Assembly (NCBI GenBank): GCA_016744065.1
Contig: JADGFA010000017.1
Span: 1-64,000, forward strand
DNA from: Gammaproteobacteria bacterium
Lineage (GTDB): Bacteria; Pseudomonadota; Gammaproteobacteria; SZUA-229
DNA length: 64,000 nt
Direction: 5' to 3'
This document shows positions 1,404 to 23,747 of the stretch, in pieces. The position numbers and the translations under genes were made by a program. Numbering within the stretch: the first letter of the stretch is position 1; the number at the start of each line of letters is the position of its first letter. Below the pieces are notes generated by a model. The model was not told the DNA's origin. It did not search any database and saw only the letters and a program-made list of their open reading frames with translations.

Positions 1404-1417
1404 TTGATATATATCAA
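1404..1417 (+). promoter_or_regulatory. Perfect FNR/ANR-type box upstream of glycogen operon
   Basis: TTGAT-ATAT-ATCAA is an exact match to the consensus bound by FNR/ANR/FnrP-type oxygen-responsive regulators. Its centre (1410.5) is 41.5 bp from a start point near 1452 predicted by the hexamer TAAAAT (1440-1445). That is the canonical class II spacing of FNR-activated promoters. The gene for the regulator itself is not in the window. Confidence 0.65.
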
Positions 1418-1439
1418 AAGACCTTTATATGTGCACTAA

Positions 1440-1445
1440 TAAAAT
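1440..1445 (+). promoter_or_regulatory. Candidate -10 hexamer of glycogen operon promoter
   Basis: TAAAAT matches TATAAT at 5 of 6 positions and would place the transcription start near 1452, giving a leader of about 65 nt before glucokinase. It is chosen because of its spacing to the FNR-type box; the region is AT-rich, so other hexamers are possible. Confidence 0.4.
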
Positions 1446-1472
1446 TAATGTCGATATCCATTTGTTTTTAAT

Positions 1473-1509
1473 TAACAGTTACCTGTTTTATCTGTGCGGT
1501 TAACTGTTA
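1473..1509 (+). promoter_or_regulatory. Inverted repeat in the glycogen-operon leader
   Basis: TAACAGTTA (1473-1481) and TAACTGTTA (1501-1509) are perfect 9-bp inverted arms around a 19-bp spacer, extendable by two G-C pairs with a one-base bulge. It ends 7 bases before the GTG start of glucokinase, where no Shine-Dalgarno sequence is visible. It could be a protein operator or an RNA hairpin affecting translation of the first gene. Confidence 0.4.
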
Positions 1510-1516
1510 TTGTATT

Positions 1517-2494
1517 GTGAATATTATTGCCGCAGACATTGGTGGTACCAAATCACACATGGTTCTGGCTAATACAGATAAACCACATTATATTATTTTT
1601 GAATTAAAGTATAAAAGTACGGATTTTGAAAATTTCGAATCCCTACTCAATACATTCATACGTGATACTGGTCTACAGGGAAAACTGCCAGCAGTTTTGT
1701 CACTGGCATTACCAGGGGTAGTTGATAGTGACCTTGTTCAGTTAACTAACTTACCCTGGGAAATAGACCGTTCTATACTGATCGAAATGTTTGGTTTTGA
1801 GCAGGTGTATTTTATGAATGATTTTCAGGCATCTGCATTGGGAACGCTTGAACTTGATGATGATGAATTAACTGTACTTAATAAAGGAAAGGAAAACAAT
1901 GTTGGGTTACGTGTAGTTGTTGGTGCAGGAACAGGTTTAGGTGTTTCATGGCTGTTAAATAAAAAGGAAAAGTCTGTTGCATATTCAACCGAGGGCGGGC
2001 ATATAGATTTTGCACCTGTAGATAAGCAACAAATGGATTTGTTGCATTTTCTTATGATACGTTACTCTCATGTTTCATATGAGCGTATATTATCAGGTAA
2101 AGGCCTGGTTAATCTTTATGCATTTTTTTTAACAGGAGCTACAGGTACTGATGATGAAATTACAGTTGATGCGAAGTGGATTAATCAACAGGCTAGTCAG
2201 GGAAATAAAGTGGCTATACAGGCGATGCGATTATTCATTCGAATTTATGCAGCCTATGTTGGTAACCTGGCATTAATTTTTAAACCTCAAGGTGGAATTT
2301 ATATCACTGGGGGAATTGCGTTAAAAATGATTAACTGGATGCAGTCGGAAGACTTTATTCAGGCGTATTTAAACAAAGGAAGAATGCAGCAGGTAGTTGA
2401 TCAGGTAGCTGTATTTTTAGTTAAAAATGAAAGCGTGGGTGTTTTCGGCGCCTTATCAGAAGCAGTTAAATTACTGCAGGATGAAACGAAATGA
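1517..2494 (+). CDS. glk: Glucokinase (Glk family)
   Basis: Catalyses ATP-dependent phosphorylation of glucose to glucose-6-phosphate in the cytoplasm. The N-terminal ADIGGTKSHMVLAN is the ATP-binding phosphate-1 motif of the ROK/hexokinase fold, NDFQASALG matches the conserved glucokinase segment, GAGTGLGVSWL the phosphate-2 region and EGGHIDFAP the sugar-binding loop. At 325 residues it fits the proteobacterial Glk family (about 320). The start is GTG at 1517 because the nucleotide-binding motif begins at once and no upstream start exists; no ribosome-binding site is visible. It is the first gene of the glycogen operon and its last bases overlap the glgC start (ATGA), implying translational coupling. 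It probably recovers free glucose released by MalQ and GH57 activity. Confidence 0.88.
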   Translation: MNIIAADIGGTKSHMVLANTDKPHYIIFELKYKSTDFENFESLLNTFIRDTGLQGKLPAVLSLALPGVVDSDLVQLTNLPWEIDRSILIEMFGFEQVYFMNDFQASALGTLELDDDELTVLNKGKENNVGLRVVVGAGTGLGVSWLLNKKEKSVAYSTEGGHIDFAPVDKQQMDLLHFLMIRYSHVSYERILSGKGLVNLYAFFLTGATGTDDEITVDAKWINQQASQGNKVAIQAMRLFIRIYAAYVGNLALIFKPQGGIYITGGIALKMINWMQSEDFIQAYLNKGRMQQVVDQVAVFLVKNESVGVFGALSEAVKLLQDETK

Positions 2495-3816
2495 CTATAA
2501 GCCACATAAAGCAGGAAAAGAACTATCGTTATTATACCGATTCTAAAAACACCTCTGAGTTAACTCGTAAAACACTTGTATTAGTTCTGGCGGGTGGGGC
2601 TGGTTCACGATTAAAAGGCCTGACCAAATGGCGTGCAAAACCTGCTGTTCCATTTGGTGGAAAATATCGCATTATAGATTTTGCCCTTTCAAATTGTGTT
2701 AATTCAGGCTTACGCCGAATTGGTGTACTGATCCAGTATAAATCACATTCACTGATTCGACATTTGCAACGTGCATGGGGTTTTATGCGAGCAGAGATAG
2801 GTGAATTTGTAGAAATCATTCCTGCACAGCAACGGATAGACAATGACTGGTATAGAGGAACAGCGGATGCTTTATATCAGAATATTGATATTATTCGACG
2901 TCATGCACCCGATAATGTCATGGTGCTTGGTGGTGATCATATTTACACAATGGATTATTCAAGGATGTTGATTGATCACGTAAGCTCAGGTGCAGATTTG
3001 ACAGTGGGTTGTATTGAAGTGCCGAGGGATGAAGCCTCTGAGTATGGTGTTATGTCGGTTGATGCAGATATGTGTATTACCCGTTTTACAGAAAAACCTG
3101 AAGACCCAGAAGCCATACCCGGCAAAGAAAATAGTTCATTGGCATCAACGGGCATTTATATCTTTTCAACTAAATATCTTTTTGAAAGTTTAATAGCCGA
3201 TGCAGAAAATCCAGAATCAGCACATGATTTTGGAAAAGATATTATTCCCCAGAGTCTTAGCCAGTGCTCTGCCCATGCTTATTCTTTTGTGAATGAACGA
3301 GGGCAGCCTGCTTACTGGCGGGATGTGGGTACAGTTGATTCATACTGGAAAGCTAATATGGAATTGTGTGCGGTCGAACCAGAATTGAATTTATATTCAC
3401 GTGACTGGCCAATCTGGACTTATCAGACACAGTACCCACCTGCCAAATTTGTATTTGATGATGATGGTGCTCGGGGTGAAGCCGTCGACTCTCTGGTGGC
3501 GGGTGGTTGCATTTTATCTGGCGCAAAGGTTAAACGTTCCGTTATTTTTTTTGCTACAGAAATAGAACGAGGTACAGTGATAAAAGACAGTGTGATATTG
3601 CCTAAGGTGAATATCGGTGAGAACTGCCGAATTACCCGTGCGGTCATAGATAAGGCCTGTATTATTCCAGATAATACGATTATTGGTGAGAATCAACAAA
3701 ATGATGCAGAGCGTTTTCATGTTACTGAAAATGGTGTGGTACTGGTAACCCCGGAGATGATGGATCAAAAATTACATGTTATAAATGAAGATAAATTATC
3801 TAATCTGATTGTATGA
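2491..3816 (+). CDS. glgC: Glucose-1-phosphate adenylyltransferase
   Basis: Makes ADP-glucose from glucose-1-phosphate and ATP, the committed step of bacterial glycogen synthesis. The N-terminal LVLAGGAGSRLKGLTKWRAK is the nucleotidyltransferase signature, with the PAVPFGGKYRIIDF substrate loop just after it. YRGTADALYQN and GGDHIYTMDY are the catalytic segments, and FTEKPEDP is the sugar-phosphate region. The C-terminal third shows hexapeptide-like left-handed helix repeats (GGCILSGAKVKRSVIF and following). Length 441 is normal (E. coli 431). The start overlaps glk by 4 bp and its stop overlaps the GH57 gene by 4 bp. Allosteric control by glycolytic intermediates is usual for the family but cannot be read here. 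Confidence 0.95.
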   Translation: MTISHIKQEKNYRYYTDSKNTSELTRKTLVLVLAGGAGSRLKGLTKWRAKPAVPFGGKYRIIDFALSNCVNSGLRRIGVLIQYKSHSLIRHLQRAWGFMRAEIGEFVEIIPAQQRIDNDWYRGTADALYQNIDIIRRHAPDNVMVLGGDHIYTMDYSRMLIDHVSSGADLTVGCIEVPRDEASEYGVMSVDADMCITRFTEKPEDPEAIPGKENSSLASTGIYIFSTKYLFESLIADAENPESAHDFGKDIIPQSLSQCSAHAYSFVNERGQPAYWRDVGTVDSYWKANMELCAVEPELNLYSRDWPIWTYQTQYPPAKFVFDDDGARGEAVDSLVAGGCILSGAKVKRSVIFFATEIERGTVIKDSVILPKVNIGENCRITRAVIDKACIIPDNTIIGENQQNDAERFHVTENGVVLVTPEMMDQKLHVINEDKLSNLIV

Positions 3817-5543
3817 AAAAAACCTCAAAAATTAATTTTGTACTTTGCTGGCATATGCATCAGCCATGGTATCAACAGGGTATAGATGGTGAATATAAAT
3901 TACCCTGGGTGTATCTTCATGCCATAAAGGATTATACCGATATGGCGTCTCATTTAGAGGCCCACCCTGAAATGAAATCGGTGGTTAATTTTGCACCAAT
4001 ATTATTGGAGCAGCTCGATGATTATGAGCAGCAATTAAAAGGCTGGCTTGAGTCCGCCCAGTCAATGAAGGATCCAATGTTAAACTTATTAGCTGGTGTC
4101 ACACAAATTCCTGAATCAACTGAGCAGCGATATCAATTGTTATGTAATTGTCGACGTGCAAATGCGGAAAAAATGATAAATCCTTATATCCCATTTAAGC
4201 GTCTTCTTGAGCCATTTGAAGCAATTTTTTCAGCGGATGATAACAGCCTGTTGAATGCAGTCGATTTGCAGTATTTAACACCGCAGTATTTTATGGATTT
4301 GCTGGTATGGTATCACCTGGCCTGGTTAGGTCATTCTTTAAAGCAAGACAGTGTATGTACTGAATTGATTAAAAAAGCGTCTTTATTTAATCAGAAAAAT
4401 TGCCGTGATTTGTTACAACTTATTCATGACAGTATTTCAGGTATTATTCCCCGTTATCGGAATCTTGCTCATAAAGGGCAGATTGAATTATCCATGACGC
4501 CTTATGCTCATCCTATTATTCCATTACTGAATGATTTTAAAAATATGCAATGTGCTCAACCTGAAGCACCTGCTCCTGTATGTGATAATTATCCGGGAGG
4601 TATTGAACGTTCACGTTGGCATATTCAAAAAGGTATTGATTGTTTCGAACATTATTTTGATTTACGCCCAGAAGGTATCTGGTTATCTGAAGGGGCAATT
4701 TCAGAGGATGCCATCGAGTTAGTAGAAGAATTTAACTTTAAGTGGAGTGCATCTGGCGAGGGTGTCAGGCGGAATAGTATGCATCTGTGTGATAAAGACC
4801 CTGAAAAAATTTATAGTGAACGGGCACAGTTTTATTCTTATCAGTTAAAAAATTGTTCATGCAGACTTTTTTTTCGAGATGATGGTCTGTCCGATCTTAT
4901 TGGTTTTGAGTATAGCAAGCTTAATTCGGTAGATGCAGCAGATGATCTGGTGCAACATCTGGTCAATATTGCGAATTATCTTGGGGAAGAGGCAGATCAA
5001 TATGTGGTATCGATTATTCTTGATGGTGAAAATGCCTGGGAATATTACCCTCATAATGGTCATTACTTTCTTGATCATCTGTATGATCAACTATCAAATC
5101 ACCCGCGCATTAAAACAGCCAAATTTTCCGAATTAACTGAATTGCCTAAAGTTCATAAGCTAGATCATTTATGTGCAGGAAGCTGGGTGTATGGTTCTTT
5201 TTCAACCTGGATTGGTGAAAAAGATAAGAATTTGGCATGGGAAAGACTGGTGGCAGTGAAGCAGGTTTTTGATCGTTTTATTGATAACCCGGAATTAAAT
5301 GATGAAGAAAAATACCGAGCAAGTCGTCAACTTGCAATTTGCGAAGGTTCTGACTGGTTCTGGTGGTTTGGTGAGACTAATTCATCTAATAGCGTAAGTG
5401 ATTTTGATAGTTTGTTTCGAGAGCAACTTGAAAACCTTTATATTTTATTAAAACAGTCACCACCAGATAATCTAAAACAGCCGATTTCAATAGGTACTAA
5501 TGGAAATACAGAAAATGCTGGTACGATGTTAAGAAATAACTAA
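3813..5543 (+). CDS. Glycoside hydrolase family 57 protein
   Basis: A 576-residue member of GH57, which holds alpha-amylases, amylopullulanases, 4-alpha-glucanotransferases and branching enzymes. The five GH57 regions are visible in order: HMHQP at residues 14-18, GQIELSMTPYAHPIIPLL, the nucleophile region PEGIWLSEGAIS around 286-296, the acid/base region LDGENAWEYY around 403, and GSWVYGSFSTWIG. It has no signal peptide, so it acts in the cytoplasm on glycogen or maltodextrins. It is translationally coupled to glgC upstream and malQ downstream (the final A of its stop is the first base of malQ's ATG). Since glgB is in the same operon, it is more likely a glucan-hydrolysing or glucan-transferring enzyme than the main branching enzyme; exact specificity is open. 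Confidence 0.87.
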   Translation: MKKTSKINFVLCWHMHQPWYQQGIDGEYKLPWVYLHAIKDYTDMASHLEAHPEMKSVVNFAPILLEQLDDYEQQLKGWLESAQSMKDPMLNLLAGVTQIPESTEQRYQLLCNCRRANAEKMINPYIPFKRLLEPFEAIFSADDNSLLNAVDLQYLTPQYFMDLLVWYHLAWLGHSLKQDSVCTELIKKASLFNQKNCRDLLQLIHDSISGIIPRYRNLAHKGQIELSMTPYAHPIIPLLNDFKNMQCAQPEAPAPVCDNYPGGIERSRWHIQKGIDCFEHYFDLRPEGIWLSEGAISEDAIELVEEFNFKWSASGEGVRRNSMHLCDKDPEKIYSERAQFYSYQLKNCSCRLFFRDDGLSDLIGFEYSKLNSVDAADDLVQHLVNIANYLGEEADQYVVSIILDGENAWEYYPHNGHYFLDHLYDQLSNHPRIKTAKFSELTELPKVHKLDHLCAGSWVYGSFSTWIGEKDKNLAWERLVAVKQVFDRFIDNPELNDEEKYRASRQLAICEGSDWFWWFGETNSSNSVSDFDSLFREQLENLYILLKQSPPDNLKQPISIGTNGNTENAGTMLRNN

Positions 5544-6919
5544 TGTCAGAAATAGATTTTTATAAACGACGTGCTGGCGTGTTGTTGCATCCGACATCAT
5601 TGCCTTCAGGGCTGCTTGATGATGATGTGGAGCACTGGTTACAGTGTCTTTCTGATAGTGGTTTTGGTGTATGGCAGGTGTTACCTTTAGGTGATCCACA
5701 AAATGGATTATCCCCCTATCAATGTAGTTCTGCTTTTGCTATTAACCCCAGTTTATTATTTAGATTATTGCCTGTAAATTCAGCGGATAAAGGTTTTGTT
5801 GCATTTTGTCAGAAACAGAAGTTCTGGCTAGATGATTATGCTTTGTTCAAGGTGTTGAGGCGTTATTTTAATGATGTTAGCTGGAATGAATGGCCGGAGG
5901 AATATAAATTTCGTCATATTAAAAAAATGCAACAGGTGCGCCTTCAATATGCTGAGACTATTACAGATTTAAAGTGGCAGCAATATCAGCTGCAATTACG
6001 TTGGTTAGAGATTAAACAACATGCGATAGAAAAAAATATTTTACTATTTGGAGATATACCTATTTTTGTTGCTTATGACAGTGCAGATGTATGGGCTCAC
6101 CCTGACTGGTTTATGTTGGATGGCGATGAAAATATGCTCCATGTTACCGGTGTACCTCCAGATTACTTTTCTACAACGGGACAACGCTGGGGCAATCCGC
6201 ACTATAACTGGGAAGCGATGCAAAGTAGTGATTATGCATGGTGGATACACCGAATTAAATATCATTTTGAGCTATTCGACTTATTACGAATAGATCATTT
6301 CAGAGGCCTGGAATCAGTTTGGGTGATTGATGCTGCGTGTGAAACTGCGATAGATGGTTATTGGCAACATGTACCCGGTGATGCACTCCTGGAAAAAATA
6401 AAAAATTTATATAAAAAGTTACCTTTGGTGGCGGAAGACCTTGGTGTTATTACACCTCAGGTTGTTGCGTTACGAAAGCGGTATAAGTTACCAGGAATGT
6501 CTATTTTACAATTTGGTTTTGATGAGTTTGAAGACAGTCCACATAAGCCGCAGAATATAGATGAAGATAAGGTGGCATACACTGGTACCCATGATAATGA
6601 TACAACCATTGGCTGGTTTAATAGCCTGGAAGATCATATTAAAAGCTATGTTCTAGAAAAACTTGATATAGAAAGTATAGAAGGTAAAGATATAAGTGAA
6701 CAGGTTTTACAGTCACTTGTTGTTCAGGCAATGGAGTCTCGTGCGAGTCTTTGCATAATACCCATGCAGGATTTTTTAAGCCTGGGTACAGAGGCGAGAA
6801 TGAATGTTCCAGGTACTATTGCCGGGAACTGGAAATGGAAGTTTCAATGGAGGCAGCTAGATAATGAAAGAATTAATGTGATGCGAGAAAAAATAAAAAA
6901 TTCTCATAGATTAATTTAA
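5543..6919 (+). CDS. malQ: 4-alpha-glucanotransferase
   Basis: Disproportionates alpha-1,4-glucans, moving maltosyl or longer units and releasing glucose (GH77). Diagnostic segments are RRAGVLLHPTSLPSG at the N-terminus, GDIPIFVAYDSADVWAHP, GVPPDYFSTTGQRWGNPHYNW, the nucleophile region LLRIDHFRGLESVW, the acid/base region VAEDLGVITPQV and YTGTHDNDTTIGWF. At 458 residues it is somewhat shorter than the compact Thermus-type enzyme (about 500) and much shorter than E. coli MalQ, but both ends look intact. Its ATG begins on the last base of the GH57 stop. In this operon it would process short glucans left by phosphorylase, with the freed glucose taken by glucokinase. Confidence 0.93.
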   Translation: MSEIDFYKRRAGVLLHPTSLPSGLLDDDVEHWLQCLSDSGFGVWQVLPLGDPQNGLSPYQCSSAFAINPSLLFRLLPVNSADKGFVAFCQKQKFWLDDYALFKVLRRYFNDVSWNEWPEEYKFRHIKKMQQVRLQYAETITDLKWQQYQLQLRWLEIKQHAIEKNILLFGDIPIFVAYDSADVWAHPDWFMLDGDENMLHVTGVPPDYFSTTGQRWGNPHYNWEAMQSSDYAWWIHRIKYHFELFDLLRIDHFRGLESVWVIDAACETAIDGYWQHVPGDALLEKIKNLYKKLPLVAEDLGVITPQVVALRKRYKLPGMSILQFGFDEFEDSPHKPQNIDEDKVAYTGTHDNDTTIGWFNSLEDHIKSYVLEKLDIESIEGKDISEQVLQSLVVQAMESRASLCIIPMQDFLSLGTEARMNVPGTIAGNWKWKFQWRQLDNERINVMREKIKNSHRLI

Positions 6920-7003
6920 TAAAAAATTAGTAATGCTTTTTATATTATTCAAGTAAAAATGACAGGTGATAGTTTTGTTTTGTTTTTTAACTCAGAGAAA
7001 TAA

Positions 7004-9175
7004 ATGACAGAAATATTGGCAAAGATACAGGCAGGAAAATATCATGACCCATTTGAGTGGCTAGGTTTACATGCTGTGGGTGATCGTTTTGTTGTGCGTG
7101 CTTTTATGCCCAGTGCTGAAACAGTCGAACTGCAAGGTGTTGGTGCCATGCAACGTATTGAGAGCACAGATGTATTTGAAATTTATATAACGTACAAAAT
7201 AAAAGAAAAATTAGCTGTTCATTATAGCTTAAACTGGATTGAAAAAAAATCACTTGAATCTCATAGTATTATTTCACCCTATAGTTTCCAGCCGTTGCTA
7301 AGTGAATTTGATCTGGATTTATTTTCAGGTGGTAGACATTTACATATATACAGGTTTCTTGGTGCGCGTTTAATGGCCGTTGATAATGTTGATGGTTGTC
7401 TGTTTGCCGTCTGGGCACCTAATGTAAAACGCATCAGTATTATTGGTGATTTTAATGGCTGGCATGGTCTGCGTCATCCTATGCGTAACCGGGGCTATTC
7501 CGGCGTATGGGAGTTATTTATACCTGGCTTAAATGCACATGATAATTATAAATATGAAATTGTAAGTCATACTGAGGCAATACTGCATAAGACTGATCCC
7601 TATGCTCGCTCCATGGGTTTGCGCCCGGATACGACCAGTAAGGTATCACCATTAGATACTTATGTCTGGAAAGATAGTGATTGGCTAGCCTTTAGAAAGA
7701 AACGTCAATGGTTACATCAACCCATGTCAATTTATGAAGTTCATGCGGGTTCATGGCGGCGCCATGAAGATGGAAGTTTTTTAAGTTATCGAGAACTAGC
7801 AGAGCAGCTTGTGCCTTATGTAAAAGATCTGGGTTATACGCATATTGAGTTTTTACCTTTTACTGAACATCCACTTGATGAGTCATGGGGGTACCAGGTG
7901 AGTGGTTATTTTTCACCTACATCCAGGCATGGTAGTGCGGAAGATTTACGTTATTTAATTGATACCGCACATTGTAATGGTATTGGTATTTTTCTTGACT
8001 GGGTACCCGCTCATTTTCCTCGAGATGATTTTGCCCTGGCGCAGTTCACCGGCGAACCCTGCTATGAATATAATGATCCTCAAAAGGGGACGCATCAGGA
8101 CTGGGGAACATTAATATTTAATTATGGACGCAATGAGGTACGCAATTTTTTAATTACTAATGCCGTATACTGGATTGAAGAATTTCATATTGACGGTTTA
8201 AGAGTTGATGCTGTCGCTTCCATGTTATACCTTGATTATTCTCGTGAGCATGGTCAATGGTCGCCTAATATTCATGGCGGTCGAGAACACCTGGAAGCGA
8301 TTGATTTTCTTAAAAACCTGAATGAAGTTGTGCATGCTGAATTTCCAGGTGTTTTGACACTTGCCGAAGAAAGTACTGACTGGCCTATGGTATCTCGGCC
8401 AACAGATGCTGGCGGCCTGGGCTTTTCTATGAAATGGAATATGGGCTGGATGCATGACACTTTAAGCTACGCACAAACTGATCCAGTGTATCGACGATTT
8501 CATCTGAATCAGTTAACGTTTAGTCAGCTCTATGCTTATAGTGAAAATTTTGTACTGCCTTTGTCCCATGATGAAGTGGTTCATATGAAGCGTAGTATGC
8601 TGGATAAAATGCCAGGAGATGTCTGGAAGAAATTTGCTAACTTGCGTCTTTTATATGCTTATCATTATGCTCATCCAGGTAAAAAATTACTATTTATGGG
8701 AGGCGAGTTTGGTCAGTGGGATGAATGGAATGAAAGTAAGCAACTGGACTGGATGGTTAGTGGTATGGATAAGCATGCGGGGCTGGTAAATTTGTGTAGA
8801 GATCTTAATAATATTTACTGTAAGTTCACGCCGATGCATTTTTATGATTTTGATCAACAGGGATTTCAATGGATTAGTTGTGATGATGTAGATAATTCAA
8901 CATTAGCATTTATACGTAGATCACAGGATGAGTTTGTGATTTGTATGTTTAATTTTACGCCTGTACCAAGGGAGGATTATACAATTGGCGTTCCTCAGGA
9001 AGGCCTGTATAGAGAAATATTTAATTCAGATGCCATTTGTTACGGAGGCAGTAATTTGGGTAATGGAGGAGAGGTGTTTAGTCAACACCAGTCCTTGCAC
9101 GGTTTTGAATACAGTATAACTCTGATATTGCCACCACTCAGTGCTGTCTTTTTTTCTAACAGAGTTGTTTTATGA
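7004..9175 (+). CDS. glgB: 1,4-alpha-glucan branching enzyme
   Basis: Introduces alpha-1,6 branches into glycogen (GH13, CBM48). The N-terminal ~110 residues form the extra N1 domain beginning ILAKIQAGKYHDPFEWLGLH, followed by the CBM48 region (FAVWAPNVKRISIIGDFNGW). The catalytic barrel shows GSWRRHEDGSFLSYREL, the nucleophile strand GLRVDAVASMLYLDY near residue 400, the acid LAEEST near residue 452 and SHDEVVHMKRSM. Length 723 matches E. coli GlgB (728). It starts 84 bases after malQ at ATG 7004, with a modest purine-rich site (AGAGA), and its last 4 bp overlap glgA. Assignment is secure. Confidence 0.96.
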   Translation: MTEILAKIQAGKYHDPFEWLGLHAVGDRFVVRAFMPSAETVELQGVGAMQRIESTDVFEIYITYKIKEKLAVHYSLNWIEKKSLESHSIISPYSFQPLLSEFDLDLFSGGRHLHIYRFLGARLMAVDNVDGCLFAVWAPNVKRISIIGDFNGWHGLRHPMRNRGYSGVWELFIPGLNAHDNYKYEIVSHTEAILHKTDPYARSMGLRPDTTSKVSPLDTYVWKDSDWLAFRKKRQWLHQPMSIYEVHAGSWRRHEDGSFLSYRELAEQLVPYVKDLGYTHIEFLPFTEHPLDESWGYQVSGYFSPTSRHGSAEDLRYLIDTAHCNGIGIFLDWVPAHFPRDDFALAQFTGEPCYEYNDPQKGTHQDWGTLIFNYGRNEVRNFLITNAVYWIEEFHIDGLRVDAVASMLYLDYSREHGQWSPNIHGGREHLEAIDFLKNLNEVVHAEFPGVLTLAEESTDWPMVSRPTDAGGLGFSMKWNMGWMHDTLSYAQTDPVYRRFHLNQLTFSQLYAYSENFVLPLSHDEVVHMKRSMLDKMPGDVWKKFANLRLLYAYHYAHPGKKLLFMGGEFGQWDEWNESKQLDWMVSGMDKHAGLVNLCRDLNNIYCKFTPMHFYDFDQQGFQWISCDDVDNSTLAFIRRSQDEFVICMFNFTPVPREDYTIGVPQEGLYREIFNSDAICYGGSNLGNGGEVFSQHQSLHGFEYSITLILPPLSAVFFSNRVVL

Positions 9176-10677
9176 ATATTTTATTTGCATGTAGTGAAGC
9201 GTTTCCATTTATTAAAACAGGTGGTCTTGGTGATGTTGCCTATGCGCTCCCCGAAGCACTGAAAAAACTGGGTGACGATGTTCGCTTGGTTTTACCCGCT
9301 TATAGAGGCGTTTTAGAAGCCAGTGATAAGATTGTTGAGCTGGGTGAGTTTATGGTTAAGGGGTTTTCTGTCAGTTATTCCTTTCGGTTATTGCAGGTGA
9401 CTAAAAAATCTTATGATACGGATGTTTATCTAATTGATATCCCTGAGTTATATGATCGAGCGGGAAGCCCTTATTGTGATGAAGCGGGCGAGCCCTGGAT
9501 GGATAATACAGAGCGTTTTGTGGTATTTAGTCAGGCTGTTAGCTTGTTAACACAATGTTTTACTGAACTTGAGTCAGGGAATAAATGGACTGTAGATGTT
9601 GTGCATTGCAATGACTGGCAAACAGGATTAGTCCCCGCTTTTTTAAAAGCTTCTGGTTCATCGGTAAAAAGTATATTTACTATTCATAATCTGGCTTATG
9701 ATGGTTTGTTTAATTACGAGAGCTTTATGCAACTGGATTTGCCAAAAGAATGGTGGTCAGGTGAATTCATAGAGTTTTACGGCTCTGCTTCAATGTTAAA
9801 ATCTGCAATGATTTTTTCTAATTCGGTTACAACAGTCAGCCCAAATTATGCACATGAAATCTGTACCGAAAAATTGGGTTTACGTTTTGACGGTGTGTTA
9901 CGTAGCCTGGGTGATAAGTTTAGTGGTATTTTAAATGGTATTGATTTAGATGAATGGAATCCACAAAATGATCCTTATATTCAACAAAATTATAGTACGG
10001 GTAAACAGGTGGCTTCGAGCAAACGTGCAAATAAGTTTGCCTTGTTAAAAGGTACAAAGCTACCCCAGGAAGATAAGCCGTTATTAGGTTTTATTGGGCG
10101 CCTGGTGGAACAAAAGGGGATAGCTCTTATATGTGAAATTTTACCTGAACTTTTTAAAGCAACTAACGTCTCTATTATAATACTGGGATCTGGACAGAGT
10201 AATTATGAAAATGAGTTGAAGAAACTGGCTAAAACCTGGCCCGAACGTTTACATTTACATATCGGTTACTCAGAGTCATTGGCTCATCGTATTGAAGCTG
10301 GAAGTGATATATTTTTAATGCCATCGAAGTTTGAACCCTGTGGTTTAAATCAGATGTACAGTCTTCGTTATGGAACCTTACCTGTGGTAAATAATACAGG
10401 AGGCCTGGCCGATACCGTGGTGAATGCGACTTTATCTACATTTAAAAATAATACAGCCAGTGGTTTTGTGATGAAAAATTCAGATGCCAACTCACTTCTG
10501 GTTTGTATAAATACCGCTTTAGAACTTTATACAGATAAAGCACGTTGGAAACAGTTGCAAAATACAGCAATGAAAAAAAATTCAGGCTGGATAAAAAGCG
10601 CTAAAGCTTATCGTAAGCTTTATGCAAAGAAACCGGCTAAAACAGGTAAAAATAGCCCTGAAAAAGTAAGCCAATAA
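9172..10677 (+). CDS. glgA: Glycogen synthase (ADP-glucose type)
   Basis: Transfers glucose from ADP-glucose to the non-reducing end of glycogen (GT5). The ADP-glucose-binding motif KTGGLGDVAYALPEAL is at residues 15-30. The GT-B C-terminal domain carries GFIGRLVEQKG and the catalytic segment SKFEPCGLNQMYSLRYGTLP, followed by NTGGLADTV. VVHCNDWQTGLVP is the conserved sugar-contact region. At 501 residues it is slightly longer than E. coli GlgA (477), the excess being a Lys-rich C-terminal tail (YAKKPAKTGKNSPEK). The ATG overlaps the end of glgB by 4 bp, so the two should be made together. Confidence 0.95.
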   Translation: MNILFACSEAFPFIKTGGLGDVAYALPEALKKLGDDVRLVLPAYRGVLEASDKIVELGEFMVKGFSVSYSFRLLQVTKKSYDTDVYLIDIPELYDRAGSPYCDEAGEPWMDNTERFVVFSQAVSLLTQCFTELESGNKWTVDVVHCNDWQTGLVPAFLKASGSSVKSIFTIHNLAYDGLFNYESFMQLDLPKEWWSGEFIEFYGSASMLKSAMIFSNSVTTVSPNYAHEICTEKLGLRFDGVLRSLGDKFSGILNGIDLDEWNPQNDPYIQQNYSTGKQVASSKRANKFALLKGTKLPQEDKPLLGFIGRLVEQKGIALICEILPELFKATNVSIIILGSGQSNYENELKKLAKTWPERLHLHIGYSESLAHRIEAGSDIFLMPSKFEPCGLNQMYSLRYGTLPVVNNTGGLADTVVNATLSTFKNNTASGFVMKNSDANSLLVCINTALELYTDKARWKQLQNTAMKKNSGWIKSAKAYRKLYAKKPAKTGKNSPEKVSQ

Positions 10678-10698
10678 AAATAAAACCAGGATTTCATC

Positions 10699-13173
10699 AT
10701 GAAAAATAAAAACTGGATTAAACAAAACAATATAACCGAGATTCAGCCCCTGCCTACTGACAGTTGTTCGATGGCGCAGGGCTTTAATCGCTATTTACGT
10801 AATCATCTTGGGCATTTTATGGGATTGGTGCCTTTTTATTTATATGAGGCCATGGCATTAACAGTGCGTGATCGTATTATGTATCAATGGCATAAAACCT
10901 GGCAACGTAATAATCAACCACAGGTTCGTAAAGCTTATTATATATCATTGGAGTTTCTAATTGGCCGTGCACTGGGGAACCATTTATTAAACCTGGATAT
11001 AGAAGAAGAAACACGGGAAGCATTACTTAACTATGCCGTACAACTTGAAGATGTTATTGAAGAAGAGCCAGATGCCGGATTAGGTAATGGCGGTCTTGGC
11101 AGGTTAGCAGCCTGTTTTATGGACAGTTGTGCAACGCTTGATTTGCCTGTAGTGGGTTATGGTATTCGATATGAATACGGAATGTTTCATCAGTTAATTG
11201 AAAAAGGTTATCAGGTAGAAGAACCCGATCACTGGTTACGTGATGGTAACCCCTGGGAGGTTGCAAGGCCAGAGTTTGAACAGACCATTCGGTTTGGTGG
11301 CCGAACTCAACATTATCATGATAAAAAAGGTGTACATCATGCACGTTGGATAGATACAGAAGATGTTATTGCCATTCCCTATGATTTACCTGTTTCTGGC
11401 TATCGTAATAAAACAGTTAATACACTGCGGCTATGGAAGGCGACATCGACTGAGCTTTTTTGTCTTGCTGATTTTAATGCAGGTAGTTATTCAGAGGCAG
11501 TTGAAGCGAAAAATGATGCTGAGCATATTACGATGGTACTCTACCCAAATGATAGCAGTGAATGTGGTAAAGAACTGCGTTTGAAGCAACAGTACTTTCT
11601 GGCGTCTGCGAGTATTCAGGATGTTATACGTCAGTGGGAGCAAACAAACGGTAACAGTTATGATCAGTTTGCGGATTACAATGTTTTTCAGATGAATGAT
11701 ACCCATCCAACTATTGCAGTGGCAGAATTAATGCGAATTTTAATGGATGTAAAACGTTTGAGCTGGAATGCTGCCTGGAAAATGACTAACAGAACTATGG
11801 CTTATACTAATCATACATTACTGCCAGAAGCATTAGAAAGCTGGCCGGTATCAATGATGCAACGATTATTGCCGCGTTTAATGGAAATTATTTTTCGTAT
11901 TAATGAATTGTTTTTGCATGATGTTTCATTGAAATGGCCAGGGGATATAGAAAGGCAAACACGAATGTCTTTAATAGAAGAAAATGGAGAAAAAAGTGTT
12001 CGTATGGCTTATCTCGCAATTGTCGGGAGCTTCTCTGTAAATGGGGTCGCCGCACTGCATTCAAAGTTGTTATGTGAGGGTTTGTTTAAGGATTTTTATG
12101 AATTATGGCCAGAAAAATTTAATAATAAAACCAATGGTGTGACACCACGGCGTTGGATTGCGCATGCTAATCCAGCACTAAGGAAACTATTATCAGAAGA
12201 AATTGGTGATGAATGGATATATGATTTAGATAAAATATCTACGCTTAAAAAATTTGTTGATTCAAATGATCGTGAATTTTTAAATAAATGGTATGAAGTT
12301 AAATTACATAACAAAAAAAGAATGGCGAAACTTGTAGAACAGACCTGTAATGTGGTTTTTGATACAGATGCTATGTTTGATGTTCAGGTTAAACGTTTAC
12401 ATGAATATAAACGTCAGCTATTAAACGTGCTACACGTAATTCACTGTTATTTACAGATTAAATCAGGAAGTAAGGTGTATTGCACGAATCGAGCAGTACT
12501 TATTGGAGGTAAAGCAGCGCCTGGTTACCATATGGCTAAATTAATTATTAAATTAATAAATAATGTAGCTGATGTAGTTAATAATGATCCACAAATTGGT
12601 AATCAGTTAAAGCTGGCTTTTTTAGCGGATTATAATGTGTCAAAAATGGAAATAATTTGTCCTGCTACAGATTTATCAGAGCAGATATCTACTGCCGGTA
12701 AAGAAGCATCAGGTACCGGTAATATGAAATTTATGATGAATGGTGCATTAACGATTGGCACCTATGATGGTGCTAATATTGAAATGTTAGAGGCTGTGGG
12801 AAAGGATAACTTTTTTCTATTTGGCTTAAATGCTGGTGAGGTTGAAGAGGCTCGTGATGATTATAACCCTCAGAGCATTATAGATAATGATATTGATTTA
12901 CAGGCGGTTATGCAGTTGTTAGAAAGTGGCCATTTCAACCTGTTTGAAGAAGGTATATTTGATGATGTTATTTCAGCATTAAAAGATCCCCATGATCCAT
13001 GGCTGACACTGGCTGATTTCAGGAGTTATATTGATGCACAAAATTTCGCTGCGACAGTTTATCGTGACAGGGACAGGTGGTTGAAAATGAGTATATTGAA
13101 TTCTGCAAGTAGTGGTTTTTTCTCCACTGACAGGACGATGCGTGAATATAATAATGATATCTGGAAATTATGA
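10699..13173 (+). CDS. glgP: Glycogen/maltodextrin phosphorylase
   Basis: Releases glucose-1-phosphate from alpha-1,4-glucan ends using phosphate and pyridoxal phosphate (GT35). Family hallmarks are YYISLEFLIGRALGNHL, EPDAGLGNGGLGRLAACFMDS, QMNDTHPTIAVAELMR, the cofactor contact segment GGKAAPGYHMAKLII, and EASGTGNMKFMMNGALTIGTYDGANIEM, in which the Lys of GTGNMKF forms the PLP Schiff base. Length 824 is standard (E. coli GlgP 815). It starts 21 bases after glgA, and is the last gene of the operon: the next 139 bases before gnd carry no clear terminator. Confidence 0.96.
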   Translation: MKNKNWIKQNNITEIQPLPTDSCSMAQGFNRYLRNHLGHFMGLVPFYLYEAMALTVRDRIMYQWHKTWQRNNQPQVRKAYYISLEFLIGRALGNHLLNLDIEEETREALLNYAVQLEDVIEEEPDAGLGNGGLGRLAACFMDSCATLDLPVVGYGIRYEYGMFHQLIEKGYQVEEPDHWLRDGNPWEVARPEFEQTIRFGGRTQHYHDKKGVHHARWIDTEDVIAIPYDLPVSGYRNKTVNTLRLWKATSTELFCLADFNAGSYSEAVEAKNDAEHITMVLYPNDSSECGKELRLKQQYFLASASIQDVIRQWEQTNGNSYDQFADYNVFQMNDTHPTIAVAELMRILMDVKRLSWNAAWKMTNRTMAYTNHTLLPEALESWPVSMMQRLLPRLMEIIFRINELFLHDVSLKWPGDIERQTRMSLIEENGEKSVRMAYLAIVGSFSVNGVAALHSKLLCEGLFKDFYELWPEKFNNKTNGVTPRRWIAHANPALRKLLSEEIGDEWIYDLDKISTLKKFVDSNDREFLNKWYEVKLHNKKRMAKLVEQTCNVVFDTDAMFDVQVKRLHEYKRQLLNVLHVIHCYLQIKSGSKVYCTNRAVLIGGKAAPGYHMAKLIIKLINNVADVVNNDPQIGNQLKLAFLADYNVSKMEIICPATDLSEQISTAGKEASGTGNMKFMMNGALTIGTYDGANIEMLEAVGKDNFFLFGLNAGEVEEARDDYNPQSIIDNDIDLQAVMQLLESGHFNLFEEGIFDDVISALKDPHDPWLTLADFRSYIDAQNFAATVYRDRDRWLKMSILNSASSGFFSTDRTMREYNNDIWKL

Positions 13174-13312
13174 AAATATTAACAGTCTTGTTTTTAGTCG
13201 AGAATTAACAAATTATTTAAATTAAATCTATTTTTACTTCTAGAGTATAGTAGTTTATATCAGATTTAAATTTTTTATTAATATTAAAAATATTTTTTAA
13301 AGTGAGTATAAA

Positions 13313-14224
13313 ATGAAACTTTCAATGATCGGTTTAGGGAAAATGGGTGCCAATATGGTACGTCGTCTGGCGTATGCTGGGCATGAAATAGTTATTTATG
13401 ATATTTCAAAAGATGTTTCAACTGATCTTGAAAATGAACTTAATGGTGTTGTAGCAGTAAATACACTTGATGAATTAATAAAAAAATTACCATCACCAAA
13501 AGTTGTATGGTTAATGGTGCCACATCAACATGTGGATAAAATGATTGAGGATATATTGAATGCTGGACTGAGCAGTGGCGATATTATTGTTGACGGTGGT
13601 AATTCTAATTATAAGCTCAGTCAGAAACGAGGAGAAATGCTCCAGCAACGTGGTGTGCACTTTGTTGATAGTGGTACATCTGGTGGTGTCTGGGGCTTAG
13701 AAAATGGCTATAGTCTAATGGTCGGTGGAAGTGATGAAGCCATTCAAATTATTAAACCGGCATTAAAAACACTTGCACCATCTGATGAATCTGGCTGGGG
13801 GCATGTGGGGCCAGTGGGGGCCGGTCACTATGTAAAAATGGTGCACAATGGTATCGAATACGGAATGATGCAGGCATATGCTGAAGGTTTTGAGTTAATG
13901 CATAGTAAGCATGAAATGGATCTGGATATGCATCAGATTTCACGTATCTGGCAACATGGCAGTGTGGTGCGATCCTGGTTACTGGATTTAATTGCTGACG
14001 CGTTAGAACAGGATATTGAAATGAGTGAGTTAAGTGATTTTGTCGATGACTCAGGAGAAGGGCGCTGGACAATACAGGATTCTATTGAAAATGCGGTACC
14101 GATACCTGTGTTAACGCTTGCATTACAGATGCGTTTTCGTAGTCGGCAGGATTCTTCTTATTCAGCCAGGGTATTAAATGCCATGCGTGCGGGTTTTGGT
14201 GGGCATACAATAAAGTCAAAGTAA
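13313..14224 (+). CDS. gnd: 6-phosphogluconate dehydrogenase, short (GndA) type
   Basis: Oxidatively decarboxylates 6-phosphogluconate to ribulose-5-phosphate. The Rossmann motif IGLGKMGANMVRRL, the substrate segments VDGGNSNYKLSQKR and GTSGGVWGLENGYSLMVGG, and HNGIEYGMMQAYAEGFE are all present. At 303 residues it belongs to the short class rather than the ~470-residue NADP-dependent enzyme of E. coli. The second beta strand ends in VIYDIS, an Asp where NADP enzymes have Asn-Arg-Ser, which argues for NAD preference (inference). A purine-rich site (AGTGAG) precedes ATG 13313, and a strong terminator follows, so it may be transcribed separately from zwf-pgl. Confidence 0.92.
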   Translation: MKLSMIGLGKMGANMVRRLAYAGHEIVIYDISKDVSTDLENELNGVVAVNTLDELIKKLPSPKVVWLMVPHQHVDKMIEDILNAGLSSGDIIVDGGNSNYKLSQKRGEMLQQRGVHFVDSGTSGGVWGLENGYSLMVGGSDEAIQIIKPALKTLAPSDESGWGHVGPVGAGHYVKMVHNGIEYGMMQAYAEGFELMHSKHEMDLDMHQISRIWQHGSVVRSWLLDLIADALEQDIEMSELSDFVDDSGEGRWTIQDSIENAVPIPVLTLALQMRFRSRQDSSYSARVLNAMRAGFGGHTIKSK

Positions 14225-14225
14225 T

Positions 14226-14265
14226 AGATGACGAAAATTAAATTAATGTTTTTCGTCATCTTTTA
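14226..14265 (+). terminator. Rho-independent terminator after gnd
   Basis: AGATGACGAAAA (14226-14237) pairs perfectly with TTTTCGTCATCT (14250-14261), a 12-bp stem with a 12-nt loop followed by a T-rich run. It begins inside the two bases after the gnd stop and separates gnd from zwf, which may therefore have its own promoter or depend on read-through. Confidence 0.85.
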
Positions 14266-14299
14266 TTTTTAGAAAACTTTAAAATTAAGGAAGTAATAA

Positions 14300-15796
14300 A
14301 TGAGTGCAGATGAACAGAAACTGGATACTGCAGACCCCACTAATATTGTTATCTTTGGAGCTACTGGTGATTTAACCCGGCGTAAGTTGATGCCTGCATT
14401 ATTGCGTATGTTGTCCTGTGGCTTGGTACACGAAGATAGTTGTATTCATGGTGTGGTACATAATCGCAGTGAAACAGAATGGTTACAAATGATTCGTGAT
14501 GGGTTTAATTTATTTTCTCCAAAACTGTCCGTAGATGATGGAGTATGGAATCAATTTTCATCACACCTTAAAATGATTGATGGTGATCTTGGGGATGAGC
14601 GTACTTATAAGAACATTGCTGAATCATTACAGCTTCTGGGTGGTAAAAAAAATGTTATGTTTTATTGTGCAATTCCACCGGACTGGTATGGAACGGTGGC
14701 AAAAGGCCTGTATCAGGCAGGTCTGGTAAATGAAGAGGAAGGTTATCGTCGACTGGTAATAGAAAAACCTTTTGGTAGTGATCTTGAAAGTGCCAGCGCA
14801 CTGGATAATGAATTACAGGCGGTTTTTGATGAAGAACAGATTTATCGTATTGATCATTATCTGGGGAAGGAAAGTGTACAGAATTTATTAGTTTACCGAT
14901 TTGCCAATAGTATTATGGAGCCGCTCTGGAATCGTAATTATATTGACCATATTCAAATTACGGCATCGGAAACTATTGGTATAGAGTACCGGGCAAAATA
15001 CTACGAAAATGCCGGTGCATTACGTGACATGATACAAAGTCACTTAATGCAGCTTATGACATTGGTTGCAATGGAACCACCTGTAGAGTTTACAGCAGAT
15101 GCCGTACGTGATGAAAAAATGAAAGTGTTGCGTGCCATTCGCCGTTTCGAACCTGAGCAGATTAAGCTGCATACTGTTTCAGCGCAGTATGCTTCAGGCT
15201 GTGTCGATGGTGAAGATATTGCGGCATATGTATCGGAAGAAAATGTCTCACCTGATTCAGCAACCGAAACCTTTGCAGGTGTAAAATTTTATATCGATAA
15301 CTGGCGTTGGCAGGGCGTTCCATTTATATTATGGACGGGTAAGCGTTTGAAATCCAGAGTGTCTGAAGTGATGATTCGGTTTCGTAAGCCGCCATTTAAT
15401 TTATTTGATAATCATGCATCTATTCCTGCTGCCAATGCACTAGCTTTTCGTTTGCAGCCTGAAGGCGGTGTGGTAATACGTTTGAATGCTAAAAAACCGG
15501 GTCTTACTACAGACAATGAAGAGCTGGTGATGCGTGCACCTTATGCGGACGATGTGGAAAAAGTTTCAGATGCATATGAAATTTTAATGCATGATGTGCT
15601 TGTTGGTGATAGCACTTTGTTTTCCAGAGGTGATGAGGTAGAGGAATCGTGGTCTATTGTTGAACCTATATTGAAAGCCTGGGAAGGTCGTTTTTCAATT
15701 GAGCGTTATCGTGCTGGTACCTGGGATATACCTGCTATGGATGAACTGACAAAAGATTGTGTTGGTGGTTGGCACAAGCCAACGGTTTATGAATAA
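14300..15796 (+). CDS. zwf: Glucose-6-phosphate 1-dehydrogenase
   Basis: Oxidises glucose-6-phosphate to 6-phosphogluconolactone, generating NADPH. The cofactor motif IFGATGDLTRRKLMPALLRM lies near residue 18, EKPFGSDLESA in the middle, and the active-site signature YRIDHYLGKESVQNLLVYRF near residue 190, with the catalytic His in RIDHYLGK. Length 498 is normal. It starts at ATG 14300 behind AAGGAAG, a good ribosome-binding site. Its 3' end overlaps the start of pgl by 8 bases, indicating translational coupling of consecutive pathway steps. Confidence 0.95.
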   Translation: MSADEQKLDTADPTNIVIFGATGDLTRRKLMPALLRMLSCGLVHEDSCIHGVVHNRSETEWLQMIRDGFNLFSPKLSVDDGVWNQFSSHLKMIDGDLGDERTYKNIAESLQLLGGKKNVMFYCAIPPDWYGTVAKGLYQAGLVNEEEGYRRLVIEKPFGSDLESASALDNELQAVFDEEQIYRIDHYLGKESVQNLLVYRFANSIMEPLWNRNYIDHIQITASETIGIEYRAKYYENAGALRDMIQSHLMQLMTLVAMEPPVEFTADAVRDEKMKVLRAIRRFEPEQIKLHTVSAQYASGCVDGEDIAAYVSEENVSPDSATETFAGVKFYIDNWRWQGVPFILWTGKRLKSRVSEVMIRFRKPPFNLFDNHASIPAANALAFRLQPEGGVVIRLNAKKPGLTTDNEELVMRAPYADDVEKVSDAYEILMHDVLVGDSTLFSRGDEVEESWSIVEPILKAWEGRFSIERYRAGTWDIPAMDELTKDCVGGWHKPTVYE

Positions 15797-16457
15797 TTTT
15801 AAAATCTATAAAGATCCTCAGGCAGTGGCGGAGGCAGCAGCAGATTATCTTTGTCAACAAATTAAAGCTTGTATAGCAAAAAATAATCGGTGCCATATTG
15901 TTCTGCCAGGTGGTAGTACGCCCGCACTTTGTCTTGAGTTGTTATCACAAAAATTATTACCATGGGAAAGTGTTCACTGGTATCCGGGGGATGAGCGCTG
16001 TTTACCTGTTGGTCATTCACAGCGTAATGACACTATGATCAAACTGACGTTGTTTGCTCAACAGCCACAGGCAATTAAAAATTTTCATTCGATACCTGGG
16101 GAGCTGGGTCCGCAAAAAGGTGCAAAAAATTATATAAAAGTACTAGAGCCTATTGATAAATTTGATATTGTTGTACTTGGTATGGGGGAGGATGGTCATA
16201 CAGCCAGTCTTTTCCCTGGAAATGCAGCGCTTAATGATGGCGCAAGTGTGGTGCCGGTATTTAATGCGCCTAAACCACCAGCAGAGCGTATCAGTATTGG
16301 TTTAACATGGCTTGCAAATGCAACAGAATGTATTGTGCTTGCAACCGGAAGCTCTAAATGTAAAGCATTGCAACGTATACAGCAGGGCGTTGAATTACCT
16401 GTTGTTCAGGCCAGGCCAAATGTCTGGTTTGTTGATGAGCCGGCAATGAAGGGTTAA
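15789..16457 (+). CDS. pgl: 6-phosphogluconolactonase
   Basis: Hydrolyses 6-phosphogluconolactone to 6-phosphogluconate (glucosamine-6-phosphate isomerase-like fold). Signatures are IVLPGGSTPALCLELL, WYPGDERCLPVGHSQRNDTM and VLGMGEDGHTASLFPGN. I place the start at ATG 15789 (222 residues, MNNFKIYKD) inside the end of zwf, because an upstream in-frame start adds only a 10-residue extension without family support. The position after zwf and the 8-base overlap support the assignment. No plus-strand terminator is obvious downstream; the hairpin at 16485-16524 is oriented for the porin gene. Confidence 0.93.
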   Translation: MNNFKIYKDPQAVAEAAADYLCQQIKACIAKNNRCHIVLPGGSTPALCLELLSQKLLPWESVHWYPGDERCLPVGHSQRNDTMIKLTLFAQQPQAIKNFHSIPGELGPQKGAKNYIKVLEPIDKFDIVVLGMGEDGHTASLFPGNAALNDGASVVPVFNAPKPPAERISIGLTWLANATECIVLATGSSKCKALQRIQQGVELPVVQARPNVWFVDEPAMKG

Positions 16458-16478: not shown

Positions 16479-16524
16479 ATAAAAGCCTCATTCTAAACCC
16501 GATAAATTAAGTTTAGAACGAGGC
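16479..16524 (-). terminator. Terminator of the porin gene
   Basis: GCCTCATTCTAAAC (16485-16498) pairs with GTTTAGAACGAGGC (16511-16524) with one mismatch and a 12-nt loop. Read on the minus strand the stem is followed by TTTTATAT, so it terminates the porin transcript; it may also limit read-through from pgl. Confidence 0.75.
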
Positions 16525-16560: not shown

Positions 16561-17697
16561 TTAAAACACATATTGTGTCTGTAGGAAGAGTTCATTTTCA
16601 TCATTGTCTGTTGTGCCTTTCATATTTTCATTGATACGATAAGTCATCTGTACCTTTATTTTATGTTTCTGGATGTACCAGTTTGCACCAAAAGAGCTTC
16701 TGTTCCATGCATCTGCATAGTTATCAGCATCCTGTGTCTGGTAGCCCAGTACCAGTTCAAGTGTTTTTGGTGAAACCATATATCCAGCTTCTAATGCGGC
16801 ATTTGTTAATTTGGTTGAACCGTTTTCATAAAGTCCACCCGTGTAAGATGATGAAACGGTATCAGCATCAAAGCTATTGAGTTGAGCGTCGACTGAAAAA
16901 CCATTACCACGATATGAGCCCGATAATTCAAGTCCTGTTACGGAATCAACGTCGGGCTTACCACCTGCTTCGTCTGCGGTGTTATTGTCCTCGTCGTTAC
17001 TCCATGTGTAGGCAGCAAAGCCAATGCTAGTTCCGCTTTTACCGCTAAAATCGCCCTGACTGAATTTAACTTTATTACCAAAACTCATTTCAACACGACC
17101 CCCTACCATGAAGCCTTCATTGAAATCACCGTTTGCGTTTGCAGGTGAATCAAAGTCAAGCTTGTCGTCATCAGGGTCAATATTTGATTGTGTAATTGCG
17201 GCGCCCCAGGTCAACATTTTATCTGATGATGTGCCATTAAAGTGAACACCCATATTACGATCGGGTGTGCCATAATTATGGTCACCTACAAATGTTCTTT
17301 CGACGAGTTGTTGTTTTTTAGATGATGTTAGTTGCTCACGTGAAAAGGGGAACATTTTATTACCCACAGATACTTTTGTTCCACCTTCTGTTTTGTATTG
17401 CATATAGGCATCTTTGATAGCAATTTCATTTTCACCGGATGCTTTTCCCATATCCCACTGGATTTTTCCTTTCCAGTTTTTATACAGACTACCTTCTATA
17501 TATGGGCGTAAACGTCTAAAGAAAAGTTCATCTGTTTTTTCACCTCCATCAGGATCGGTCATATGGTATTGCATCTGAATACGACCTCCAATTTTTACAT
17601 ATTTATCACCATCTTTAAATGTTACTCCGGCCACACTTATGCTCGGAACTACTAGTGCTGTTAGTAATAAGCCAGAAAATATACTTGAATTTTGCAT
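16561..17697 (-). CDS. OprO/OprP-type outer-membrane porin
   Basis: A 378-residue outer-membrane beta-barrel of the phosphate-selective porin O/P family. It opens with a signal peptide (hydrophobic core FSGLLLTALVVPSIS, probable cleavage after SVAG). Family features are FKDGDKYVKIGGRIQMQYH near the N-terminus, ELFFRRLRPYIEGSLYKNWKGKIQWD and the LVERTFVGDHNYGTPDRNMGV segment. It ends in aromatic residues (FLQTQYVF), the usual beta-barrel assembly signal. Family members carry phosphate, polyphosphate or other anions, so the substrate cannot be stated; the pst locus is 7 kb away. It is monocistronic, with its own terminator, and a 12-bp palindrome lies upstream. Confidence 0.85.
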   Translation of the reverse strand: MQNSSIFSGLLLTALVVPSISVAGVTFKDGDKYVKIGGRIQMQYHMTDPDGGEKTDELFFRRLRPYIEGSLYKNWKGKIQWDMGKASGENEIAIKDAYMQYKTEGGTKVSVGNKMFPFSREQLTSSKKQQLVERTFVGDHNYGTPDRNMGVHFNGTSSDKMLTWGAAITQSNIDPDDDKLDFDSPANANGDFNEGFMVGGRVEMSFGNKVKFSQGDFSGKSGTSIGFAAYTWSNDEDNNTADEAGGKPDVDSVTGLELSGSYRGNGFSVDAQLNSFDADTVSSSYTGGLYENGSTKLTNAALEAGYMVSPKTLELVLGYQTQDADNYADAWNRSSFGANWYIQKHKIKVQMTYRINENMKGTTDNDENELFLQTQYVF

Positions 17698-23237: not shown

Positions 23238-23747
23238 CTAATCCTTTATCAAAATTTTCTGTTGATTTACATTAATATTATTCCATAATTTAATAAGTTT
23301 AGACGCTTCATTAACGGCGCTTTCAAGTGATTGTTGAACTACATCAGTGGGTTGCATACCCCAGGCAATTTTTTCAGGTTGAATACCGATTAAAGCGCGT
23401 TTTTCAGGCAGGTGATCAGTGATACGTGAGATATCCATTAAATCAAGTAAACCGACTTCATGGGCGCTGCGTTTTGTATGGCCTAAAAAATGATCCATCT
23501 CTTTATTAACAAAAGTCTTTATTGTACCGGCAGGGGAGTGTAGCTGTGCAGAGTCAAGAACAATAAGGTTGTTACAGTCTTCTATCCAGGCTGCCAGAGT
23601 AAAGCTCAGGGTGCCACCATCAAGAAAAGTTAATTTAGAAATATTAGAATATTTTGATTCAAGAATGTTAAGCGCATGAATACCTGCACCTTCATCCGAA
23701 AGTAATGTATTGCCGATGCCTAGTATAAGCGTTTCATTGTGGAGCAT
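23238..23747 (-). CDS. Hydrogenase maturation protease (HyaD/HupD family)
   Basis: Endopeptidase that removes the C-terminal peptide of the large subunit after nickel insertion. LGIGNTLLSDEGAGIHAL at residues 9-26 is the family signature and contains the acidic nickel-binding residue. LDGGTLSF and LIVLDSAQLHSPAGTI carry the second acidic ligand. The segment SAHEVGLLDLMDIS supplies the conserved His, and LIGIQPEKIAWGMQPT is also typical. Length 169 is normal (HybD 164). It is the first gene of the minus-strand hydrogenase operon, with the substrate encoded as the last gene. Confidence 0.92.
   Translation of the reverse strand: MLHNETLILGIGNTLLSDEGAGIHALNILESKYSNISKLTFLDGGTLSFTLAAWIEDCNNLIVLDSAQLHSPAGTIKTFVNKEMDHFLGHTKRSAHEVGLLDLMDISRITDHLPEKRALIGIQPEKIAWGMQPTDVVQQSLESAVNEASKLIKLWNNINVNQQKILIKD

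Follow-up and report, generated by a model that had tools for sequence, protein, structure and literature searches.

Here, we report that positions 1404 to 1445 of a 64,000-nucleotide stretch of gammaproteobacterial DNA (hereafter the window) are probably a class II FNR-activated promoter, which would turn on a glycogen operon at low oxygen. The reading rests on an exact FNR-type box, its spacing to a -10 hexamer, the missing -35 element, an FNR gene in the same genome and the conservation of box plus -10 across genera. The operon, glk-glgC-GH57-malQ-glgB-glgA-glgP-gnd-zwf-pgl, spans 1517–16457, all on the plus strand (genes named by Pfam), and combines the genes of glycogen synthesis and breakdown. 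It begins with glk, a glucokinase gene (1517–2494; PF02685, 1.6e-87), followed by glgC, ADP-glucose pyrophosphorylase (2491–3816; PF00483; 74–88% identity in relatives), a GH57 family glycoside hydrolase (3813–5543; PF03065), malQ, 4-alpha-glucanotransferase (5543–6919; PF02446), glgB, branching enzyme (7004–9175; PF22019, PF02922, PF02806), glgA, glycogen synthase (9172–10677; PF08323), glgP, glycogen phosphorylase (10699–13173; PF00343), a gnd-type 6-phosphogluconate dehydrogenase (13313–14224; PF03446, PF00393), zwf, glucose-6-phosphate dehydrogenase (14300–15796; PF02781, PF00479), and pgl, 6-phosphogluconolactonase (15759–16457; PF01182). A 16-pair hairpin past the last gene (16485–16524), listed as terminator-like on the minus strand, possibly marks the operon end. 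Upstream of the promoter lies a plus-strand gene for a protein with two CBS domains (859–1308; two stretches of PF00571), which fills the slot taken by an FNR-like regulator gene in nine relatives; it is split from the glycogen promoter by a plus-strand terminator-like intrinsic hairpin (1316–1339; 10 pairs, then CCTTTTTAAT). On the minus strand past the operon are a phosphate-selective porin O/P family gene (16561–17697) and, shortly beyond it, a NiFe hydrogenase large subunit gene (17906–19627); one-mismatch FNR-type sites stand at 23262, 23803 and 24556, a few kb from the hydrogenase gene.

The box TTGATATATATCAA at 1404–1417 on the plus strand matches TTGAT-N4-ATCAA exactly and forms the perfect dyad TTGAT-ATAT-ATCAA, as the preliminary description had noted. 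The class II spacing claimed there also holds: the predicted -10 hexamer TAAAAT (1440–1445, plus strand) agrees with the consensus at 5 of 6 positions, the start predicted at 1452 on the same strand (the first transcribed base, 7 nt past the hexamer) puts the box centre (1410.5) at -41.5, and the box-to--10 offset is 23. When a -35 element was sought before TAAAAT, TTGACA was matched at 3, 0 and 2 of 6 positions at spacers of 16, 17 and 18, and a promoter scan listed no sigma-70 type promoter in the 1404–1445 region. This is the layout of FNR-activated class II promoters, in which TTGAT-N4-ATCAA centred at -41.5 lies over the -35 region and activates. Other modes of control were considered at the same place. 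In the window, the 450 bp ahead of glk contain no CRP-type TGTGA-N6-TCACA site (up to 2 mismatches), and CRP control of the operon was rejected; a CsrA-type leader was rejected, GGA being absent from the 65-nt leader; and an Rfam search of 1250–1700 matched no element. A leader hairpin just 5' of the glk GTG start (1473–1509, plus strand; 9-bp perfect arms TAACAGTTA/TAACTGTTA) was discarded as a riboregulator, its folding z of -1.41 not being significant. The GTG start itself has no evident Shine-Dalgarno sequence (window 1473–1517), and several relatives have AGGA or GGGA shortly before an ATG.

The box is the single exact TTGAT-N4-ATCAA match in the window, where sites at up to one mismatch number 16 against 6.5 expected, a count reached in 0 of 100 shuffles. 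The whole genome (3.88 Mb, 94 contigs) holds 29 exact sites, whereas reading the pattern backwards finds 4, and the box is therefore not a chance occurrence; at the control's rate of 4 per 3.88 Mb, the chance that a given 200 bp contains an exact site is about 2 in 10,000. Around these 29 sites, read in both orientations, the count of -10-like hexamers at offsets 21 to 24 is 14, where their frequency at other offsets predicts about 10; the excess is slight, so the spacing argument rests on the relatives described below and not on the window genome alone. Sites in the genome adjoin ccoN of a cbb3 oxidase, a molybdopterin reductase, an NapF-like ferredoxin, a siroheme-decarboxylase-like protein and a DNR-like gene, names for which most NCBIfam matches fall below curated cut-offs and 2 of 10 proteins have none. 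Genes for ccoN, molybdopterin oxidoreductases, NapF-like and siroheme-decarboxylase-like proteins belong to the usual FNR/DNR set. Other box-adjoining genes of this putative regulon are presumably norC, a SCO1-like gene and DNR. One of the genomic sites (L010) resembles a terminator hairpin, and some others appear intragenic.

The spacing was then evaluated among relatives, for which 54 genomes of the same GTDB family were searched. Linked glk-glgC occurs in 22 relatives, with an identical gene order through glgP wherever the contig is long enough. We counted 44 glk-glgC loci, 23 from the family and 21 from outside, after dropping six duplicate records (L102-L107) and one locus that was too short (L120); family genomes enter this count where glk is linked to this glgC. 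Boxes that deviate at no more than 2 positions and have their -10 at offset 22 or 23 are present at 11 of the 44, all of them in the family, against 0–3 for 19 permuted half-sites; at up to 1 mismatch the figures are 6 of 44 against 0–1. When the 23 family regions were dinucleotide-shuffled 300 times, the count averaged 0.58 and never exceeded 3, against the 11 observed. One of the 11 (L070, TTGATTTAACTAAA/TAAATT) is regarded as spurious, which leaves 10. Counted by operon front, a class II FNR-type promoter stands at 12 of 23 readable family fronts, 10 before glk and 2 before pgi, and a 13th box (G019) is perfect and has no good -10. The offsets were fixed after the family sequences had been viewed, and the pgi fronts are the only fresh test: all three pgi-headed operons with a readable front (G025, G023, G019) have the box before pgi, and in two of these the -10 is TAGACT at offset 23. 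All 12 class II promoters share TTGA and TCA without exception, and pairwise identity of the flanks averages 0.32 on the left and 0.30 on the right; these rows were picked by box and -10, and the flank figures show only how far the rest has diverged.

Outside the family, a box at up to 1 mismatch with a -10 was found at 0 of 74 named glgC loci (80 returned minus 6 that duplicate family genomes); one outside locus (L129) has a perfect box but no -10 at class II spacing. Within the family the box is missing in G050, G052 and G053, which share the genus of the window genome by taxonomy label and keep the operon, and also in G005, G003, G013, G032 and G034, where the operon is present; the fronts of G024 and G020 are too incomplete to read. 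At L052 (G050), only the start of the CBS-domain gene is left before glk, as if a deletion had taken the rest together with the FNR-box promoter. Parsimony needs 6 changes for the box on a tree of 21 family rows (G012 and G024 omitted; G019 scored as box, G020 as no box though its front is partly unreadable). The box looks old in the family but often lost or rewired. The preliminary description suggested a search for the same site in related genomes and took its loss from close relatives with conserved operons as counting against the promoter; the outcome is mixed, in that three such close relatives, G050, G052 and G053, have no box and members of other genera have kept it.

A regulator that could read the box is encoded in the same genome. 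It has six HTH_Crp_2 proteins, one of which (C9:27288-28049) carries CxxCx5C as CQSCSLHDLC, a fourth cysteine in SLCE and the recognition helix TIETISR, and aligns to solved FNR structures at 1.7e-78; the roles of the cluster cysteines and of the E-x-x-S-R recognition helix are established for FNR. Judged by these residues, the C9 protein is a genuine four-cysteine FNR. A second candidate, encoded at C40:15142-15813, is a protein that we take to resemble DNR. Such a regulator is expected to read the same sequence as FNR, and it might be the NO-sensing DNR-like protein that acts at the box, making the glycogen operon part of a denitrification or NO response. We regard this as unlikely. The C40 gene has its own perfect box upstream and adjoins a probable norC, and 9 of 13 box genomes encode a DNR-like regulator, among them the window genome and G022, whose draft has no close FNR. 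However, a search at E <= 1e-40 finds nothing DNR-like in 4 of the 13 (G007, G015, G017, G021), 11 of the 13 encode a four-cysteine FNR or the paralog, and the regulator that adjoins the operon in nine relatives belongs with the four-cysteine FNRs and not with DNR. The two box genomes without a close FNR, G021 and G022, are drafts 69% and 77% complete and have good boxes. The distribution of FNR and DNR over the 13 genomes mildly favours FNR, and oxygen, not NO, is the likely signal as far as such gene content can indicate.

A regulator could also bind the box and repress, or tune several promoters, so that the glycogen genes fall under anoxia. FNR-type regulators can repress, and the start at 1452 is a predicted one; a centre at -41.5 without a -35 hexamer is, however, the activating layout, and all 12 family promoters have their -10 at offset 22 or 23 from the box (the offset being a selection criterion), and we consider repression very improbable. 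We give least credence of all to the box being a chance or relic AT-rich palindrome without function in the window genome, for which the low-complexity TATATATA core and the boxless nearest relatives (G050, G052, G053) speak, against the exact box at exact spacing, the 29 versus 4 genome sites, and a box kept in other genera and present at the new operon front with pgi.

A second FNR-like regulator is found in part of the family. Its gene lies directly upstream of glk in 9 of the 54 family genomes (G004, G005, G007, G011, G012, G015, G017, G052, G053), split over two contigs in G004. All eight full-length copies have CxxCx5C plus a fourth cysteine and the helix AIETVSR; seven of them are 66–83% identical to the G017 copy, which shares about 39% identity with the main FNR. 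FixK, an Fnr-family protein without the N-terminal cysteine cluster, was considered as an identity for this paralog and rejected, since 8 of 8 full-length copies keep the cluster. In the eight genomes with the flank in view the paralog is divergent from a FixL-like kinase, and a receiver-LuxR response regulator follows beyond the kinase wherever the contig reaches. The kinase of G017 has PAS, HisKA_3 and HATPase domains; the best PDB matches of its PAS are FixL heme PAS domains (3.5e-25), and a histidine aligns at what we take to be the heme-ligand position. The cluster is seen upstream of glk-glgC at L060 (G017), L061, L063, L065, L068, L069, L070 and L043. Between kinase and paralog stands a 19-bp palindrome, TATCAGGGAATCCCTGATA, in 8 of 9 genomes at up to 2 mismatches; elsewhere in the 54 genomes it turns up 3 times, against 0 for the reversed control. 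The window genome has neither the palindrome nor a close copy of the glk-linked paralog (the best match, at 39%, is the main FNR) or of the FixL-like kinase (best match 29% identity). The latter match lies about 3.4 kb from one of two RuBisCO large-subunit matches of this genome (G000:C89:10792-11718; the other is C38:7766-8659). FNR-family proteins with 29–31% identity to the FNR of the window genome lie about 2–2.5 kb upstream of glgC at L108 (Sedimenticola) and L112 (Thiolapillus).

Six of the nine paralog genomes have the class II box, in each case with TCAT as its end and a -10 at offset 22. In the remaining six class II promoters the box ends in TCAA, and the offset is 23 in five. Box ending and offset would pair with the presence of the paralog, a pairing that is no more than suggestive, since the six genomes are close kin. 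The adjacent four-cysteine FNR-like regulator and its kinase speak independently for low oxygen as a signal to this operon within the family. More tentatively, and with somewhat less than even confidence, we propose that in part of the family a FixL-like heme kinase and a LuxR-type regulator act through TATCAGGGAATCCCTGATA to drive the dedicated FNR paralog, which in turn activates the neighbouring glk-glg operon via a co-evolved TTGA[TC]N4[AG]TCAT box with the -10 at offset 22; the window genome would then represent the module-less state, with a full-consensus box that is read by the general FNR.

For the window genome, the proposed sequence of events is as follows. When oxygen falls, the cell's own [4Fe-4S] FNR (the four-cysteine C9 protein) would dimerise; the dimer would occupy TTGATATATATCAA at -41.5, stand in for the missing -35 element and bring RNA polymerase to TAAAAT. 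Expression of glk-glgC-GH57-malQ-glgB-glgA-glgP would be raised together, probably with gnd-zwf-pgl, which would adjust to anoxia both glycogen turnover and the feeding of hexose into glycolysis and the oxidative pentose phosphate path. In this model, FNR binding, the start at 1452, activation as the outcome, oxygen as the signal and the length of the transcript are all predictions. The joint activation of synthesis and mobilisation at low oxygen, put forward in the preliminary description, is supported by the box, the spacing, the presence of both gene sets, the four-cysteine FNR and the relatives; the choice of oxygen over NO is only likely. If the model is true, a low-oxygen switch shared across genera, joined in some members by a dedicated cluster of oxygen-sensing regulators, would let glycogen serve as a buffer of energy and redox state in organisms that pass between oxic and anoxic water. 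Two RuBisCO large-subunit matches, the NiFe hydrogenase and ccoN are traits of the window genome that we cite alongside. Several of the relatives are MAGs, and isolate names suggest hydrothermal sites. The C9 FNR and the box at 1404–1417 offer a concrete, predicted regulator-operator pair.

Bacterial glycogen is usually seen as a store for surplus carbon under cAMP-CRP, CsrA and (p)ppGpp control. Class II FNR-activated promoters of E. coli (FNR/CRP family) have the same box, the -41.5 position and the overlap with -35; there they serve respiration and here carbon storage, with a start that is predicted. The FixLJ-FixK cascade of rhizobia is well known, and the relatives resemble it in having a FixL-like PAS kinase, a receiver-LuxR regulator and an Fnr-family gene in one cluster; unlike FixK, the paralog keeps its four cysteines, the cluster adjoins a glycogen operon, and the window genome has no such cluster. 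A literature search, in which this exact cluster was not a target, found no glk-linked FNR paralog or FixL-like cluster beside a glycogen operon.

Oxygen control of glycogen genes is not as unusual as the preliminary description supposed. Fnr sites were predicted in 2007 before glgBXCAP in Yersinia and malQ-glgBXCAP in Pasteurellaceae (PMC1805755), and in Salmonella grown without oxygen ArcA is described as activating the genes of glycogen synthesis as well as those of breakdown (PMC3075218). The Yersinia and Pasteurellaceae cases resemble the window in having a computed Fnr-type site before a whole glycogen operon, and resemble the family in that a change of the first gene leaves the site at the front of the operon; they differ in belonging to other families, in the order glgBXCAP and in the additional NarP sites of Pasteurellaceae, and the account of them that was consulted mentions no dedicated regulator next to the operon. 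Salmonella is alike in low-oxygen activation of glycogen genes, through ArcA there and, as proposed, FNR here. Control of PHB/PHA storage by Anr/Fnr in Pseudomonas and Herbaspirillum (PMC7204398) is likewise FNR-type oxygen control of a carbon-storage polymer, with a different polymer and different genes. The idea of FNR control of glycogen genes is already known, and the window box alone adds one more case; what is new is the lineage, the family-wide conservation through a change of the first gene, and the dedicated oxygen-sensing cluster.
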